From: Lachnospiraceae bacterium
GTDB taxonomy: Bacteria; Bacillota; Clostridia; Lachnospirales; Lachnospiraceae
DNA: 50,237 nt
Assembly: GCA_017551665.1 (NCBI GenBank)
Contig: JAFZLB010000063.1
Location: 1 to 50,237, forward strand
Reading direction: 5' to 3'
Under the pieces are notes generated by a model, which did no database searches, was not told the origin of the DNA, and was given only the letters and a program-made list of their open reading frames with translations. This document shows positions 9,477 to 40,127 of the stretch, piece by piece (the stretch's first letter is position 1; each line of letters begins with the position of its first letter). Made by a program: the position numbers and the translations under genes.

Positions 9477-9521
9477 TCGATATCTTCTACAGTGTGTGTG
9501 AACGTCCAAGGGACGAAGTGT

Positions 9522-9554
9522 AAACGGTGGCCATGCTTGCATGAGCCACCGTTT
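9522..9554. terminator. Bidirectional hairpin between convergent genes
   Basis: Perfect ten-base arms AAACGGTGGC (9522-9531) and GCCACCGTTT (9545-9554) separate the DUF6465 gene from the minus-strand membrane-protein gene. A-rich and T-rich flanks would allow termination from both sides. Confidence 0.6.
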
Positions 9555-9570
9555 GCATTTCGGACCGCCC

Positions 9571-9677
9571 CACACATGAGGAATACAGCCATGCGATGCG
9601 AAGCGAGCGTGGCGAATTCCGAATGGGTGGAGAGGATTGCGGGAGCGCGAAGCGCGGAGCAATCCGTAGGGCGTTCA
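9571..9677. repeat. REP-like palindromic repeat, family 2, copy 1
   Basis: Shares about 90 bases with 20429-20525. The conserved core GGATTGCGGGAGCGCGAAGC folds on itself: GGATTGC pairs with GCAATCC and GCGC with GCGC. The repeat runs into the stop codon (9675-9677) of the minus-strand membrane-protein gene, so it marks that gene's 3' end. Confidence 0.75.
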
Positions 9678-11576
9678 CAACCCTTCCGGCCCGCAAGTTC
9701 CTCTCCTTAGCGCCGCCAACAACACCGGCAGCATCAATACCAGCGGGAGCGTATATCGTATCCCGCCCGCGTACCAGGTCGGTGACGCGATCAGAATCAG
9801 AAGACTGATCGCGGAAGGCAGGGCGAGACTTCTGGCGCGTCTGCGCCGGAAACATTCACAGATCAGATAAAAGGATGCCCAGAGCGTCAGCGGGACATTG
9901 CAGAACAGCGCAAAGGGCGGAACACTTTCGAGAAAGGACGCGAAGGCCTGCAGCGCGTCCGTCGCTTTTTCGAGCGCGGGCGGATAGGTGAACTGCAGCG
10001 CCGGATTCGTGTTGAGCGCGCCGCGTCCCACGCCGTCCGGGAAGTCGCGGCTTTTCGAAAACGGATCAAAGAAGCCGTAGATATTATGCAGCGTGGCATC
10101 GACATAGGTGAGCGGGTGTCGCAGTCCCATGGACAGCCACGCCTTCAAATACCCCGGCAGGTAACGCGCGCTTTCGCGGTAGGTATCCTTGACCTCGTCG
10201 CTCAGCAGCGGATTGTACAGCTCCCCGATGCGGTTCACATCCAGAACGGTATCCACCAGGCGCGCTTCTTCTTCCGTGATGTCTTCGGGATAGTCTCTCA
10301 TATAACGCGCGCTCTGCTGGAACGGAATGCTGAGCGCTTCTTTGATCGAACCCGGGCGGATGCCCAGGGACGGAATCCACAGCCGCAGATACACCATGTA
10401 CAGCGCCATCACGGCAGCGAGCGTGATCGTCAGCGCGCGGTGCAGGGACGGCGCCATGCGTCCGCCGGGCGCGGCGGATGTGCGTCCTGCACGCAGCCAA
10501 CGCCACGCGCAGCCGAGCCATAATGTGAAGACGATGAAGAGCCCGTTGTTGCGCGTGATGCAGACAAGGAAGGAGAGCGCGGCGAGTTTCGCGAGTGTGC
10601 GAAGCCGCTTGGCGGGGCAGACGATGGTTCCGCTTCGCTCAGATTTCGCCGGGCACTCCGCTGAGCCTGTAGTCTCAGCTCCGTGGCGAACAAGCCGCTC
10701 AGCGGAATCCATGCGTCCGCCCGCCATTGCGGCATTTACATCTCGCGTAGCAGCCGGCAGCAGGATCGGCACGAATTCGATGAAGAGCCAGAGTACCAGG
10801 ATGGAGAAGAGCGCATCCTTGACGACGGTGGTCAGGAAGCCCGCGTAGAGCGGGGAGAGCATGTAGAGGACGAGGAAGAAGCGCGAAAGGCCTTTGCCCG
10901 CGAGCGCTTCGATCAGCAGCAGGGATTTGGTGAGCACGAACACCGCCAGCAGTGTCTGTGCCAGCGCGAAGAGAAAGAGCCCGGCGTTCACGGAATCAAA
11001 GACCGTGATGCCGAACCAGGCGAAGCGACCGAGCAGAAAAGCGACGAAGGGCGGCCAGTGCGACGTCATCTGCTCCAGACCGAGCCCCTGCGCCGTCTGA
11101 TGGTACGCGTCCCAGTCAATCGCGGCGGGATAGCGGAGGAGCAGATACGGAAGCCATGCCGCGAAGATCATGAGCGCGCAGAGCAGTGGCGTATCGAACC
11201 GCCTGCCGCGGTGATGTATGCATCCGCTTCGCTCCGGATGCGCCGGACACTTCGCCGAGCCTGAGGTCTCGGCTTCGTGGCGCATAAATCGCTCAGCGGA
11301 AGGCATACCATCACCGGGCGCGGCGGATAAAAGCTCCCGTCCCTGTGCGTGTCCGAGGAAGACACGCTTGTATGCTATGCGTAACAGCGCAATCACCGCG
11401 GCGATGGCGAGCGCGAGCAGCAGCCACAACGCGAGGAAGGTCAGCGGATGTCCTGTGAACAGCGTTCCGTGCGCGCGGTAACGCATCCCCGCGCAGACAA
11501 AGAAGGAAAAGAGCAGCGCGCAGGGGAGTTCGCGAAGTGTTATGCGGAAATAATGCGGGATCGGTTTCGTCAGCAT
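9675..11576 (-). CDS. Polytopic membrane protein (DUF6020-like) with in-frame palindromic insertions
   Basis: A 633-residue integral membrane protein with about ten to twelve hydrophobic segments. The conserved-looking stretches WLPYLLLRYPAAIDWDAYHQ and TSHWPPFVAFLLG, plus the periplasmic-type loop with YPEDITEEEARLVD, resemble DUF6020/GT-C-like proteins of Clostridia, possibly a glycosyltransferase of cell-surface polymers. GAGGT lies six bases before the ATG at 11576. Three stretches do not belong to the fold: residues 84-122, 281-319 and a short one at 363-374. They encode variants of SAAPGGRM and ERLxRHGAETTGSAECPA and derive from a dispersed palindrome. All three fall in loops between membrane helices. 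The gene is alone on its strand. Confidence 0.75.
   Translation of the reverse strand: MLTKPIPHYFRITLRELPCALLFSFFVCAGMRYRAHGTLFTGHPLTFLALWLLLALAIAAVIALLRIAYKRVFLGHAQGRELLSAAPGDGMPSAERFMRHEAETSGSAKCPAHPERSGCIHHRGRRFDTPLLCALMIFAAWLPYLLLRYPAAIDWDAYHQTAQGLGLEQMTSHWPPFVAFLLGRFAWFGITVFDSVNAGLFLFALAQTLLAVFVLTKSLLLIEALAGKGLSRFFLVLYMLSPLYAGFLTTVVKDALFSILVLWLFIEFVPILLPAATRDVNAAMAGGRMDSAERLVRHGAETTGSAECPAKSERSGTIVCPAKRLRTLAKLAALSFLVCITRNNGLFIVFTLWLGCAWRWLRAGRTSAAPGGRMAPSLHRALTITLAAVMALYMVYLRLWIPSLGIRPGSIKEALSIPFQQSARYMRDYPEDITEEEARLVDTVLDVNRIGELYNPLLSDEVKDTYRESARYLPGYLKAWLSMGLRHPLTYVDATLHNIYGFFDPFSKSRDFPDGVGRGALNTNPALQFTYPPALEKATDALQAFASFLESVPPFALFCNVPLTLWASFYLICECFRRRRARSLALPSAISLLILIASPTWYAGGIRYTLPLVLMLPVLLAALRRGTCGPEGL
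10452..10486. repeat. Partial copy of the in-frame palindromic element (edge only)
   Basis: CCATGCGTCCGCC followed by GGGCGCGGCGG matches the outer edge of the family-1 element and encodes SAAPGGRM in the host protein, but the palindromic core is missing. It looks like a deletion remnant that kept the reading frame. Confidence 0.6.
10620..10722. repeat. In-frame palindromic element, family 1, copy A
   Basis: Nested inverted repeat with the inner stem CTGAG..CTCAG around CCTGTAGT, a middle stem TTCGCC/GGCGAA and outer arms ATGGTTCCGC/GCGGAATCCAT. On the minus strand it is translated inside the membrane protein (about residues 281-319) as GGRMDSAERLVRHGAETTG and onward. Confidence 0.85.
11214..11330. 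repeat. In-frame palindromic element, family 1, copy B
   Basis: Inner stem GCCGAG/CTCGGC, middle stem TGCGCC/GGCGCA and outer arms ATGCATCCGCTTCGCT versus AGCGGAAGGCAT, plus the CCGGGCGCGGCGG edge. It is translated in the same orientation and frame as copies A and C, giving GDGMPSAERFMRHEAETSG and onward at about residues 84-122 of the membrane protein. Confidence 0.85.
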
Positions 11577-20349: not shown

Positions 20350-20428
20350 GCGAATCAACAGCCGACGGGCGGCTGAACCGGACGCGTGCTCGCACGCAGG
20401 ACGGGGCAGACATCCGGCGGTGTAACGG

Positions 20429-20525
20429 ACACGAGGAAAAAAGCCGTGCGAAGCGAAGCGAGTACGGCGATTTCCGAGTATCCGCAGGATTGCGGGAGCA
20501 CGAAGTGCGAAGCAATCCGTAATTG
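20429..20525. repeat. REP-like palindromic repeat, family 2, copy 2
   Basis: Matches 9571-9677 from ACACGAGGAA through GCGAAGCGAG to AAGCAATCCGT. The core folds as GGATTGC/GCAATCC. It lies 80 bases after the FtsA-like stop. Just before it, CAGCCG/CGGCTG and GCGTGC/GCACGC form two more small hairpins. Confidence 0.75.
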
Positions 20526-20605
20526 ATTCGCGATGTAGAGGGGATTGGCCCGGCGGCTGTATCGTAGCTTTCGCCCCCCGTTGAATATACATTTTGGAGA
20601 TAAAA

Positions 20606-21517
20606 ATGCGAGTTTGCAGTATTGCATCGGGATCAAGCGGTAATTGTATTTATGTTGGTTCCGAGAGTACACACGTATTAGTAGATGCGGGATGCAGCAA
20701 GAAAAAAATCGTCGAAGGCTTAAACGGTATCGGGCTGACGCTCGATGACGTGAGCGCTATTTTGATCACGCATGAGCACTCCGATCATATTGGTGGTCTG
20801 AAAGTGTTGATGAAACACTGTACCGCGCCGTTATACGCAACCCGTGGTACGCTGCGAGCCGCAAAACTTGACACATCCGATGAGGGCGCCGCGCCAGGCG
20901 GACGCATGGATTCCGGCGAGCGGCTTTTGCGCCACGGAGCCGAGACTACAGGCTCGGCGGAGTGTCCGGCGCAACCAGAGCGAGGCGGAACCATCGGTCG
21001 CCCAGGCAGGCGACCGGAGTACATTTCCGCCGACACCCCCTTCACCGTCGGCGACCTCACCGTCACCCCGTTCGCGATCTCGCACGACGCCGCGGAGCCG
21101 GTCTGCTACCGGCTGACGGACGGGACGCACAGCTTCGTGCTGGCGACGGACATGGGCTGCTTTGACGCGTACACGGAAGCGCATTTGAAGGACGCCGACG
21201 TGCTGATGCTGGAGGCGAACCACGATATCCGCATGCTGCAGGCGGGGCCGTACCCGTACATGCTGAAGCAGAGGATTTTGTCGGACCACGGACACCTGAG
21301 CAATGACGCGTCTTCGGCGCTGCTCAACCGCGTGCTGCATGATAAGCTGCAGACGATTATGCTGGGGCATCTGAGTGAATGCAATAATCTGCCGGAGCTG
21401 GCCTACGAGACGGTGCGCCTCGGCATTGAGATGGAGGAAAACCCTTATCACGGCAACGATTTCCGGCTGATGGTCGCGGACAGACGTCTGCCCACGCCGG
21501 TGGTGGAGATTCGCTGA
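20606..21517 (+). CDS. WalJ/YycJ-like MBL-fold hydrolase with in-frame palindromic insertion
   Basis: A 303-residue metallo-beta-lactamase-fold hydrolase; family members act as 5'-3' exonucleases or related hydrolases linked to the WalKR system. The motif HEHSDH (residues 56-61) binds two metals, and the start SIASGSSGNCIYV is characteristic. GGAG lies six bases before the ATG at 20606. The usual length is about 265 residues. The surplus sits at about residues 93-132 between the strand LYATRGTLRAAKL and SADTPFTVGDLTVTPF, and is encoded by a dispersed palindrome (GGRMDSGERLLRHGAETTG and onward). The downstream glycosyltransferase overlaps its stop (TGATG). Confidence 0.87.
   Translation: MRVCSIASGSSGNCIYVGSESTHVLVDAGCSKKKIVEGLNGIGLTLDDVSAILITHEHSDHIGGLKVLMKHCTAPLYATRGTLRAAKLDTSDEGAAPGGRMDSGERLLRHGAETTGSAECPAQPERGGTIGRPGRRPEYISADTPFTVGDLTVTPFAISHDAAEPVCYRLTDGTHSFVLATDMGCFDAYTEAHLKDADVLMLEANHDIRMLQAGPYPYMLKQRILSDHGHLSNDASSALLNRVLHDKLQTIMLGHLSECNNLPELAYETVRLGIEMEENPYHGNDFRLMVADRRLPTPVVEIR
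20884..20998. repeat. In-frame palindromic element, family 1, copy C
   Basis: Inner stem GCCGAG (20939-20944)/CTCGGC (20953-20958) around ACTACAGG; middle stem TTGCGCC (20927-20933)/GGCGCAA (20968-20974); outer arms ATGGATTCCG versus CGGAACCAT. It is read in the same frame as copies A and B although it lies in an unrelated gene. Confidence 0.9.
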
Positions 21518-27347: not shown

Positions 27348-27404
27348 GCCGCCGCGGTTGGGGGCTGTGAACGTGCTGCTGAATTGTGAGCCGCCTGCCT
27401 CGGC

Positions 27405-27515
27405 GTCGTATGCATCCGCTTCGCTCCGGTTGCGCCGGACACTCCGCCGAGCCTGTAGTCTCGGCTCCATGGCGCAAAATCGCTTAGCGGAAAGCATACG
27501 GCCGCCGGGCGCGGC
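27405..27515. repeat. Palindromic element, family 1, copy D (intergenic)
   Basis: Outer arms GTATGCATCCGCT (27408-27420) and AGCGGAAAGCATAC (27486-27499), middle stem TTGCGCC/GGCGCAA, inner stem GCCGAG/CTCGGC and the edge CCGCCGGGCGCGGCGG. It differs from coding copy C by one missing base in the arm (GCGATTTTGCGCC against GCGGCTTTTGCGCC), which would break the frame used by A, B and C. Confidence 0.9.
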
Positions 27516-27540
27516 GGAATGTACATTCGTGCGCGCAAGT

Positions 27541-27637
27541 GATGCTTGCAAACACAAGATGCGATTATTTGCCGCGGAATCGAGACCTAGGCTCGATGGA
27601 GCGTTTGGCAAAACGGAGCATCGGTGTTTGCAACATC
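27541..27637. repeat. Palindromic element E, same architecture, diverged sequence
   Basis: Three nested stems: outer GATGCTTGCAAACAC..GATGC (27541-27562) against GCATCGGTGTTTGCAACATC (27618-27637), middle TTTGCC/GGCAAA (27568-27573, 27607-27612) and inner ATCGAG/CTCGAT (27579-27584, 27592-27597) around ACCTAGG. The core resembles the CGAGACTACAGGCTCG core of family 1. Confidence 0.75.
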
Positions 27638-27658
27638 ACGCAGCAGCACGTGCACGAT
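27627..27658 (+). repeat. Short repeat upstream of the NagD-like gene (also at 41207-41239)
   Basis: The sequence ACATCACGCAGCAGCACGTG and its flanks recur as ACATCACGCAGCGGCACGTA upstream of the FkbH-like gene, with TTTGC before and CAC.AT after in both. Confidence 0.6.
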
Positions 27659-27691
27659 CGAGGCAGACGGTTGAACACCTTGGAGGTAGCC

Positions 27692-28483
27692 ATGGATAAA
27701 GCTGATGTTCTGCGCGGGGTAAGGTTGTTTGTTCTTGATCTTGACGGGACGGTATATCTCGGTGAGGAGTTGATTGAAGGTGCGGACGGGTTTATTTCTG
27801 CGCTGCAGGAGGACGAGACGCGGGATTTCGTGTTCTTTACGAATAACGCCTCGCGGGTGCCTTCGTTTTATGTGGAGAAGCTGCGGCGGCTGGGGATTTT
27901 CGTGGAAGAATCACGGATTCTCACGGCGGGCGATGTGACGGCGGCCTATCTGCGGGAGACATATCCCGGCGGACGCGTGCTGCTGAACGGCACACCGATC
28001 CTGGAAGAGAACTGGCGCGCGAAGGGGATCCGCCTCGTGGAAGAAGCGCCGGATGTCTGCGTGCAGAGCTTTGACACGACGCTGACCTACGAAAAGCTGG
28101 AGCGCATCTGCCGCTATGTCCGGCAGGGCGTTCCCTTCCTGGCCACCCACATGGACACAAACTGTCCCACGGAGGACGGCTACATCCCGGACTGCGGCGC
28201 GATGTGCGCGCTGATCACGGAGTCCACGGGCGTGAAACCGCGCTATTTCGGCAAACCATTTGCGGAAACCGTGGAAACAATCGAGCGGATTTGCAACGTC
28301 CGTCGCGAGGACATGGCCTTCGTCGGCGACCGCCTCTACACGGATGTCGCCACCGGCGTGCGCAATGGCGCGAAGGGATTTCTCGTCCTGAGCGGCGAGG
28401 CGGACATGGACACCGTCCGCAGCTCCGATGTCGCCCCGACGGCAATCTACGCGTCGCTGGCGGAGATGCGGGAGTATCTGTGA
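27692..28483 (+). CDS. NagD-like HAD-family phosphatase
   Basis: A 263-residue HAD IIA hydrolase (NagD/p-nitrophenylphosphatase type). Motif I LFVLDLDGTVYLG, motif II FFTNNAS, the cap domain with THMDTNCPTEDGYIPD and GAMCALI, then motif III lysine in YFGKPF and motif IV AFVGDRLYTDVATG are all present. The ATG at 27692 follows TTGGAGG. The last 123 bp of this gene (28361-28483) are repeated at 40005-40127, marking the left edge of the accessory island. The substrate is probably a small phosphate ester. Confidence 0.9.
   Translation: MDKADVLRGVRLFVLDLDGTVYLGEELIEGADGFISALQEDETRDFVFFTNNASRVPSFYVEKLRRLGIFVEESRILTAGDVTAAYLRETYPGGRVLLNGTPILEENWRAKGIRLVEEAPDVCVQSFDTTLTYEKLERICRYVRQGVPFLATHMDTNCPTEDGYIPDCGAMCALITESTGVKPRYFGKPFAETVETIERICNVRREDMAFVGDRLYTDVATGVRNGAKGFLVLSGEADMDTVRSSDVAPTAIYASLAEMREYL
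28361..28483 (+). repeat. Left copy of the 123-bp direct repeat flanking the island
   Basis: The 3' end of the NagD-like gene. It matches 40005-40127 base for base except for five substitutions, with no gaps, and both copies end exactly at the stop codon. Confidence 0.93.
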
Positions 28484-40004: not shown

Positions 40005-40127
40005 CGCAATGGCGCGAAGGGATTTCTCGTCCTGAGCGGCGAGGCGGACATGGAGACCGTCCGCAAGTCCGATGTCACCCCGACGGCAATCTACGCGTCG
40101 CTGGCGGAGATGCGGGAGTATCTTTGA
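40005..40127 (+). pseudogene. 3' fragment of NagD-like HAD gene (right copy of direct repeat)
   Basis: The last 40 codons and stop of the HAD gene at 27692-28483 recur here with five substitutions; three of them change amino acids (AMD to AME-like, RSS to RKS, VAP to VTP). There is no start codon or ribosome-binding site and no HAD active-site motif, so it cannot encode an enzyme. It marks the right boundary of the island. Confidence 0.9.

Follow-up and report, generated by a model that had tools for sequence, protein, structure and literature searches.

A palindromic DNA element is dispersed through the draft genome of a Lachnospiraceae bacterium (G000; 2.57 Mb, 118 contigs, 91% complete), where it lies between genes and, in frame, inside unrelated protein genes. 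It is probably a mobile repeat of the MITE-like palindromic kind, hairpin-forming and non-autonomous, whose behaviour parallels that of a Rickettsia palindromic element (RPE). The observations behind this reading are direct: copies are dispersed, reside in frame within genes and are missing from orthologues of those genes; similar copies occupy unrelated genes; copies are nested in one another; and the complementarity of their arms is conserved. In its short form the element is an imperfect palindrome of 127 or 128 nt. Several copies lie in the window, the stretch of 50,237 nt of G000 that was analysed, together with two host genes:

20594..21517 (+), host gene 1, MBL-fold hydrolase (Lactamase_B_2); start codon provisional, 'WalJ-like' being the name given by the preliminary description
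20886..21013 (+), full short-form element, 128 nt, in frame within the WalJ-like MBL-fold hydrolase gene; peptide GAAPGGRMDSGERLLRHGAETTGSAECPAQPERGGTIGRPGRRP
9675..11576 (-), host gene 2, DUF6020 membrane protein, by Pfam check
11199..11326 (-), full short-form element, 128 nt, in frame at site a of the DUF6020 gene; site also filled in the related genome G040
10605..10732 (-), full short-form element, 128 nt, in frame at site b of the DUF6020 gene; outer arms diverged, still largely complementary
10454..10476 (-), element remnant, 23 bp (element bases 1-23), in frame in the DUF6020 gene; peptide TSAAPGGRM
27391..27517 (-), full short-form element, 127 nt, intergenic; one nucleotide deleted, and the frame used by coding copies interrupted by a stop
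27528..27650 (+), divergent family relative, arranged head to head with the 27391-27517 copy and extending into the predicted start of the next gene

The three copies named in the preliminary description of this DNA are all present, with the corrected bounds listed above. It had also proposed a search of the whole genome, which revealed many further copies. A BLAST search of G000 with a window copy returned 23 rows with E values from 3e-66 to 1e-3 (the query itself and two fragments counted), and a model search returned 35 rows at E<=1, of which 23 fell below 1e-3 and the weaker ones were mostly the reverse strand of the same copies. The number of copies in G000 is far beyond chance. At E<=1e-3 the short-form model (R1) matched 31 of 79 genomes of the genus, with 23 matches in G000, 30 in G040 and 8 in G045; the remaining matched genomes had one to five each, more divergent in sequence. 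G040 and G045 are Lachnospiraceae relatives from goat reticulum and, with G000, are referred to here as the goat clade; all three are incomplete drafts.

The location of the 61 goat-clade loci was assigned by our own gene finder, and coding calls were checked by Pfam and orthology. Twenty-seven loci lie inside coding genes (20 sense and 7 antisense) and 31 lie between genes or overlap a gene end. In G000 there are eight sense and three antisense coding copies, nine copies that are intergenic or extend over a gene end, two at contig edges and one whose ORF is unclear. The corresponding counts are ten sense coding, four antisense coding and 16 intergenic or overlapping copies in G040, and two sense coding, one overlapping and five intergenic copies in G045. 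Host genes include those of the WalJ-like hydrolase, the DUF6020 protein, TrmD, CarB and a GltD-like oxidoreductase, and copies sit within the MBL-fold and TrmD domains.

A single core frame (..RHGAETTGSAECPA..) is common to 19 of the 20 sense coding copies, the exception (L002), which lies within a MatE gene, being of a subtype that carries TAG in this frame. The seven antisense coding copies are all read in the frame of HSAEPVVSAPW and its variants, and two copies in genome G043, in a gene without a Pfam match, are read in other frames. The earlier statement that copies always keep one orientation and one frame therefore stands for the coding copies of the window and fails overall, given the antisense copies and the off-frame MatE copy; it describes a tendency, not a rule. 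Since two frames are usually open on the sense strand of the element, the use of one of them is a bias beyond mere avoidance of stops, albeit one counted over sites that are not independent because copies recombine. A stop in the core frame occurs in 10 of the 19 intergenic copies examined for it (11 of 20 when the MatE copy is counted).

Alignment of orthologues, likewise proposed earlier, supports gain of the element by genes that exist without it. WalJ matches were found in 11 of 13 genomes searched; the insert is present in G000 and G040 and absent from the other nine of the 11. TrmD carries a full element in G040, a remnant in G000 and neither in ten other species aligned, the stretch at the insert site differing in length among species. 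In CarB of G040, TIGR01369 matches residues 3-476 (model positions 2-475) and NF003671 matches residues 517-1109 (474-1055), and the element sits between the two, in just the uncovered stretch. Both DUF6020 sites are filled in G000 and G040. The GltD-like gene has copies at three sites in G040, and in G045 one full copy, one half copy and a third site without a copy. Between genes, element-free sites with a single unbroken flank match were found for L012 in G040, L098 in G045 and L104 in G000, the others being partial. Sites with and without a copy were aligned in search of a target-site duplication, and none was readable as the sequences are too diverged. In the wider genus, G032 and G022 form a pair with and without a copy, a comparison that does not settle which state is older. 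The preliminary description had held that the same peptide at the same place in distant orthologues, or a lack of further copies, would speak against such an element; further copies are abundant, and the orthologues, compared within the genus, did not show such a pattern.

An AlphaFold prediction of WalJ from 11 aligned sequences gave a mean pLDDT of 76.7, with values below 50 at residues 96-133 and 135-138, which correspond to the insert; this low score may be due in part to the fact that only two of the 11 aligned sequences carry the insert. Outside the insert the prediction is mostly a confident MBL fold, with a second weak stretch near residues 211-240.

In G000, trmD and rimM form one ORF of 497 codons joined by an antisense copy, as read from a single draft assembly. 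Of 12 further genomes that were examined, 11 have trmD as an ORF of its own, and one (G022, L189) has it fused to rimM without the element. A general role of the element in fusing genes was rejected, because most coding copies lie inside one gene and the TrmD-RimM fusion of G022 is element-free.

Sixteen full copies could be aligned with few gaps, and standard pairs are formed in 96.7% of cells. Changes on both sides were found in 16 of 45 pairs, as against 9.0 in shuffled alignments, and in 57 cells as against 15.9, with a covariation score of 0.254 as against 0.101; the structure was taken from the same alignment, which favours it in these counts. Four copies that were folded gave z-scores from -2.9 to -7.1. 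The outermost five pairs (CCGCC with GGCGG) are formed in 14 to 16 of the 16 copies, so that the element ends in the terminal inverted repeats expected of a MITE. The three nested stems seen in the preliminary description are a single long interrupted hairpin of four helices. In minimum-energy folds, G-U pairs make up 1.4% of arm pairs in the 16 own copies, 4.0% in 28 copies from the wider genus and 2.4% in 17 from other genera, the shares in the core being 3.2%, 4.8% and 2.5%, respectively. As the arm pairs are nearly all Watson-Crick, we read their complementarity as kept at the DNA level, which might occur via template-switch correction or through selection acting on a DNA hairpin. Four G000 copies (L010, L016, L020 and L021, on contigs C71, C37, C84 and C27) also contain, at the same internal-loop position (column about 34), a 51-nt sequence that is 96-100% identical among them, equals 17 codons and folds as two small hairpins.

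Eight copies in G040 are 91-99% identical to one another (mean 96%). Seven of these lie in five genes, in WalJ, at DUF6020 a and b, in GltC, at YfhO a and b and in TrmD, and the eighth is intergenic; the nearest other G040 copy in the alignment reaches 94% identity to this group. At five of the same sites, identity between the G000 and G040 copies is only 73-83%, and over seven sites shared by the two genomes it is 73-88%. That the G040 copies are alike and yet unlike those of G000 at the same sites suggests either that newer copies landed at filled sites or that gene conversion overwrote the copies already there; the likeness could reflect gene conversion rather than transposition.

Nesting of copies was observed directly. 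A search of the 50 flanks of 25 coding copies (out of 27) found remnants in 10, from seven copies, as against none in 200 random pieces of the window. A newer copy is bracketed by the outer arms of an older one in HK-DegV, in GltC and at YfhO a, the last of which, as read, has at least three nested layers. The breakpoints fall repeatedly at the older copy's internal loop; as this may reflect one composite that spread, they are not counted as independent events.

The short form is part of a larger family of nested palindromes in which the core is conserved and the arms, though variable, are complementary. The core model of this family (R2) is based on 35 members, of which 29 have an extra inner stem-loop of 39 nt, giving a long form of 160-170 nt in total. 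The shared core reads GCGATTT..CCACGGAG..GAGACC..GGGCTC..CGGAGTG..GAGC, and the arms vary from site to site yet remain complementary over tens of base pairs. At E<=1e-4, R2 matched 45 of 79 genomes of the genus, 13 of 299 genomes sampled from the family (at most 12 best candidates scored per genome), which represent its own and 12 other genera, and three of 391 genomes sampled from the class (at most nine best candidates scored), all three in its own family; these searches were strictly filtered, so that weak members can be missed. Rfam covariance models gave no match at the elements in the window or in 37 loci with family members, the sole match in the locus set being mir-1892 in L168, away from the element. 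A search of open-access literature found no report of such a family in Lachnospiraceae. Both searches agree with the earlier remark that none was known there.

Intergenic copies tend to lie with their 3' side near a gene end. In the goat clade a gene end lies within 80 bp of the 3' side in 24 of 31 copies and of the 5' side in 15; in the wider genus these numbers are 26 and 11 of 31, and in other genera, within 110 bp, 15 and 4 of 16. The counts exclude copies at contig edges, L088, L130 and one gene-overlapping copy of G045. For the goat clade, the gene end near the 3' side is a stop in 21 cases and a start in 3; for the wider genus the split is 13 to 13, and for other genera 9 to 6. No recurrent neighbour gene was found among the wider-genus loci examined; the clusters of neighbour genes are small (2-5 loci) and mostly represent sites shared by related species. 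Among the matches listed, pairs less than 700 bp apart, counted by eye with coding pairs excluded, comprise at least 11 in (-,+) arrangement, two in the same direction and none in (+,-), location having been checked for some of these pairs. In close pairs of G309, G064, G072, G015, G032 and others, mostly the 5' sides face each other.

REP elements are partnered with RAYT, a Y1 transposase. Y1_Tnp (PF01797), the one transposase family searched for as a mobilising partner, had no match in the drafts G000 and G040, and a Y1 (RAYT/IS200) transposase as obligatory partner was thus rejected for the goat clade. In total, 14 of 20 genomes searched contain Y1; it is also absent from G185, G254, G309 and G276, each with at least 12 copies of the element. 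Both occur together in G045, G010, G064, G004, G006 and G269, and Y1 is also present in some element-free genomes. As regards carriage by phages or plasmids, one window copy had no BLAST match in either, and two element patterns had no exact match in viral contigs.

Several known systems resemble this element in part. In the available portions of two reports, RPEs are palindromes of 100-150 bp that lie in frame inside unrelated metabolic genes, nearly half of those in R. conorii being intragenic, and orthologues have, at a given site or close to it, either the same RPE family or a different one (PMC10969869, PMC3767692); one further in-frame case appears in an excerpt of another (PMC5656822). 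The element is similar to RPEs, so described, in being a palindromic hairpin repeat of the 100-150 bp class with many copies in and between genes, and in residing in frame in unrelated protein genes (here at 27 of 61 loci). It differs in its presence in Lachnospiraceae, its conserved core with variable arms, its long form, its nested copies and the antisense reading of 7 of 27 coding copies. RPEs are also defined by their hosts, Rickettsia and Wolbachia, whereas the named relatives that carry the element are Lachnospiraceae and the class-wide sample of 391 genomes gave matches in that family only. By analogy, the element may be said to work like an RPE without being a member of that group, likened by behaviour and set apart by host lineage. 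The RPE-like behaviour proposed in the preliminary description, that of a dispersed palindromic repeat read in frame in genes, is borne out in this sense.

The ERIC/RU-1 (127 bp) and RU-2 (168 bp) repeats of enterobacteria are described in part of one report as MITE-like, intergenic and also fused in frame with ORFs; in that part, no repeat lies inside a conserved domain, and RU fusions occur at C-terminal regions (PMC2759123). Compared by this description only, the element is similar in size, in its MITE-like nature and in its occurrence between genes and in in-frame ORF fusions; unlike the RU repeats as described, its copies sit inside the MBL-fold and TrmD domains. REP elements are, in an excerpt of a further report, dispersed palindromes of 20-40 bp (PMC3733652). 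The likeness to these extends to dispersed palindromes; the unit here is 127 nt, and G000 and G040 have no Y1_Tnp match. NEMIS, RUP and the Coxiella QMITEs are, in the available portions of two reports, MITEs, short non-autonomous inverted repeats of which some lie inside genes (PMC10969869, PMC2759123). The element shares these features and differs in that a structured core is conserved, not only the terminal repeats. No target-site duplication was readable at the diverged sites compared, and no parent transposon was seen next to the wider-genus loci examined.

Other explanations for the element must be weighed against a mobile repeat. It could be a functional structured RNA, either a small RNA or a cis-regulator, that was duplicated and whose coding copies are accidental. 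The conserved asymmetric core, the strong covariation and the closeness of the 3' side to a neighbouring gene end in most intergenic copies examined would suit such a role. Against it, stops are at least as frequent as starts among the nearby gene ends, neighbour genes form no more than small clusters, mostly of shared sites, copies occur in both orientations within genes, and Rfam has no match at the elements. A G-U share of 1.4-4.0% of arm pairs, moreover, is low for a selected RNA. Overall, we consider a functional RNA unlikely. The encoded peptide could also be a selected protein module, the DNA palindrome following from its codons. In the clade, 19 of the 20 sense coding copies use one frame although a second is mostly open, which might suggest such a module. 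However, the antisense coding copies encode an unrelated peptide, the intergenic copy L008 folds as well as coding copies (z -7.1) despite a stop in the core frame, orthologues exist without the insert, and decayed remnants are still in frame, which together make a peptide module very improbable.

An artefact of assembly or binning would fit the draft state of the element-rich genomes and the finding that a G040 contig (C71, L116, 3065 bp) and a stretch of G045 (C38, L119) share 2673 bases at 99.6% identity. Yet the same sites are filled, with diverged sequence, in separately assembled genomes, and the long ORFs that contain Pfam domains have unbroken frames; we judge an artefact extremely improbable. 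The identity of L116 and L119, between otherwise diverged MAGs, represents bin contamination or recent transfer. Finally, the insertions may be old, strictly inherited and no longer mobile, with gene conversion alone making copies similar. The WalJ, both DUF6020, HK-DegV, GltC, YfhO b and TPI sites, all filled in G000 and G040, are consistent with inheritance. Sites filled in one species and empty or holding only a remnant in another point the other way, though loss is possible, as does the intergenic member of the group of similar G040 copies. Strict inheritance is, on balance, rather doubtful.

A mobile palindromic repeat would operate as follows. Insertion would take place both within genes and in the spaces between them, in the latter case often only a few bases away from a stop codon. 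Within genes, read-through on the sense strand would be open mostly to the subtype that has no stop there, and on the antisense strand to both subtypes. As the element can be read through, the protein would gain a loop of about 43 residues, the frame of which is proposed to be kept by purifying selection. Resident copies would in turn serve as landing pads or recombination partners for newer ones, which is proposed to account for nested copies, replacement by another subfamily at a filled site and reuse of the same frame. Movement would proceed as single-stranded or cruciform DNA with an enzyme acting in trans, the complementarity of the arms would be kept largely at the DNA level, and the insert peptides are presumed to be made and neutral.

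A broader scheme is possible, and we offer it tentatively, as something less probable than not. There may exist a Lachnospiraceae-wide superfamily of structured DNA hairpins that insert into or replace the apex of palindromes, their own older copies included, producing nested dolls whose site-varying outer arms are kept nearly perfectly complementary by DNA-level (template-switch) correction; in one rumen clade, these would have invaded core protein genes and joined trmD and rimM into one frame. The element is ordinary in kind, a selfish palindromic repeat, and unusual in its host lineage, its tolerance in core genes, its nesting and its superfamily without a matched described family.

To our knowledge, translated palindromic repeats in core genes have been described chiefly for the obligate intracellular Rickettsia. 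Small populations may explain the tolerance of such repeats there. A gut bacterium outside Rickettsia offers a second, apparently independent system in which to study how proteins accommodate selfish DNA. The wider family, unmatched in Rfam, is a repeat for annotators to mask, and its structured core provides a handle for seeking the mobilising enzyme in complete Lachnospiraceae genomes.

Other repeats were noted in the course of this analysis. Clostridiales-1 RNA (RF01699) occurs twice in the window, at 9501-9675 (+) and 20352-20529 (+), situated 24 and 2 bases, respectively, beyond a predicted gene end. Fragments of it were also found in the G040 loci L100 and L112, and it may itself be a dispersed repeat in the genus. 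Clostridiales-1 RNA as parent of the element was rejected, as no Rfam match occurs at the elements. A direct repeat of 123 nt, 96% identical between 28361-28483 and 40005-40127, is distinct from the element, and its first copy forms the end of a predicted gene (27596-28483). The ORF at 774-2702 of L010 has at its N-terminus tandem short stretches (VADAEGCEPP, VADAEGIEPP) that resemble remnants of the element end.
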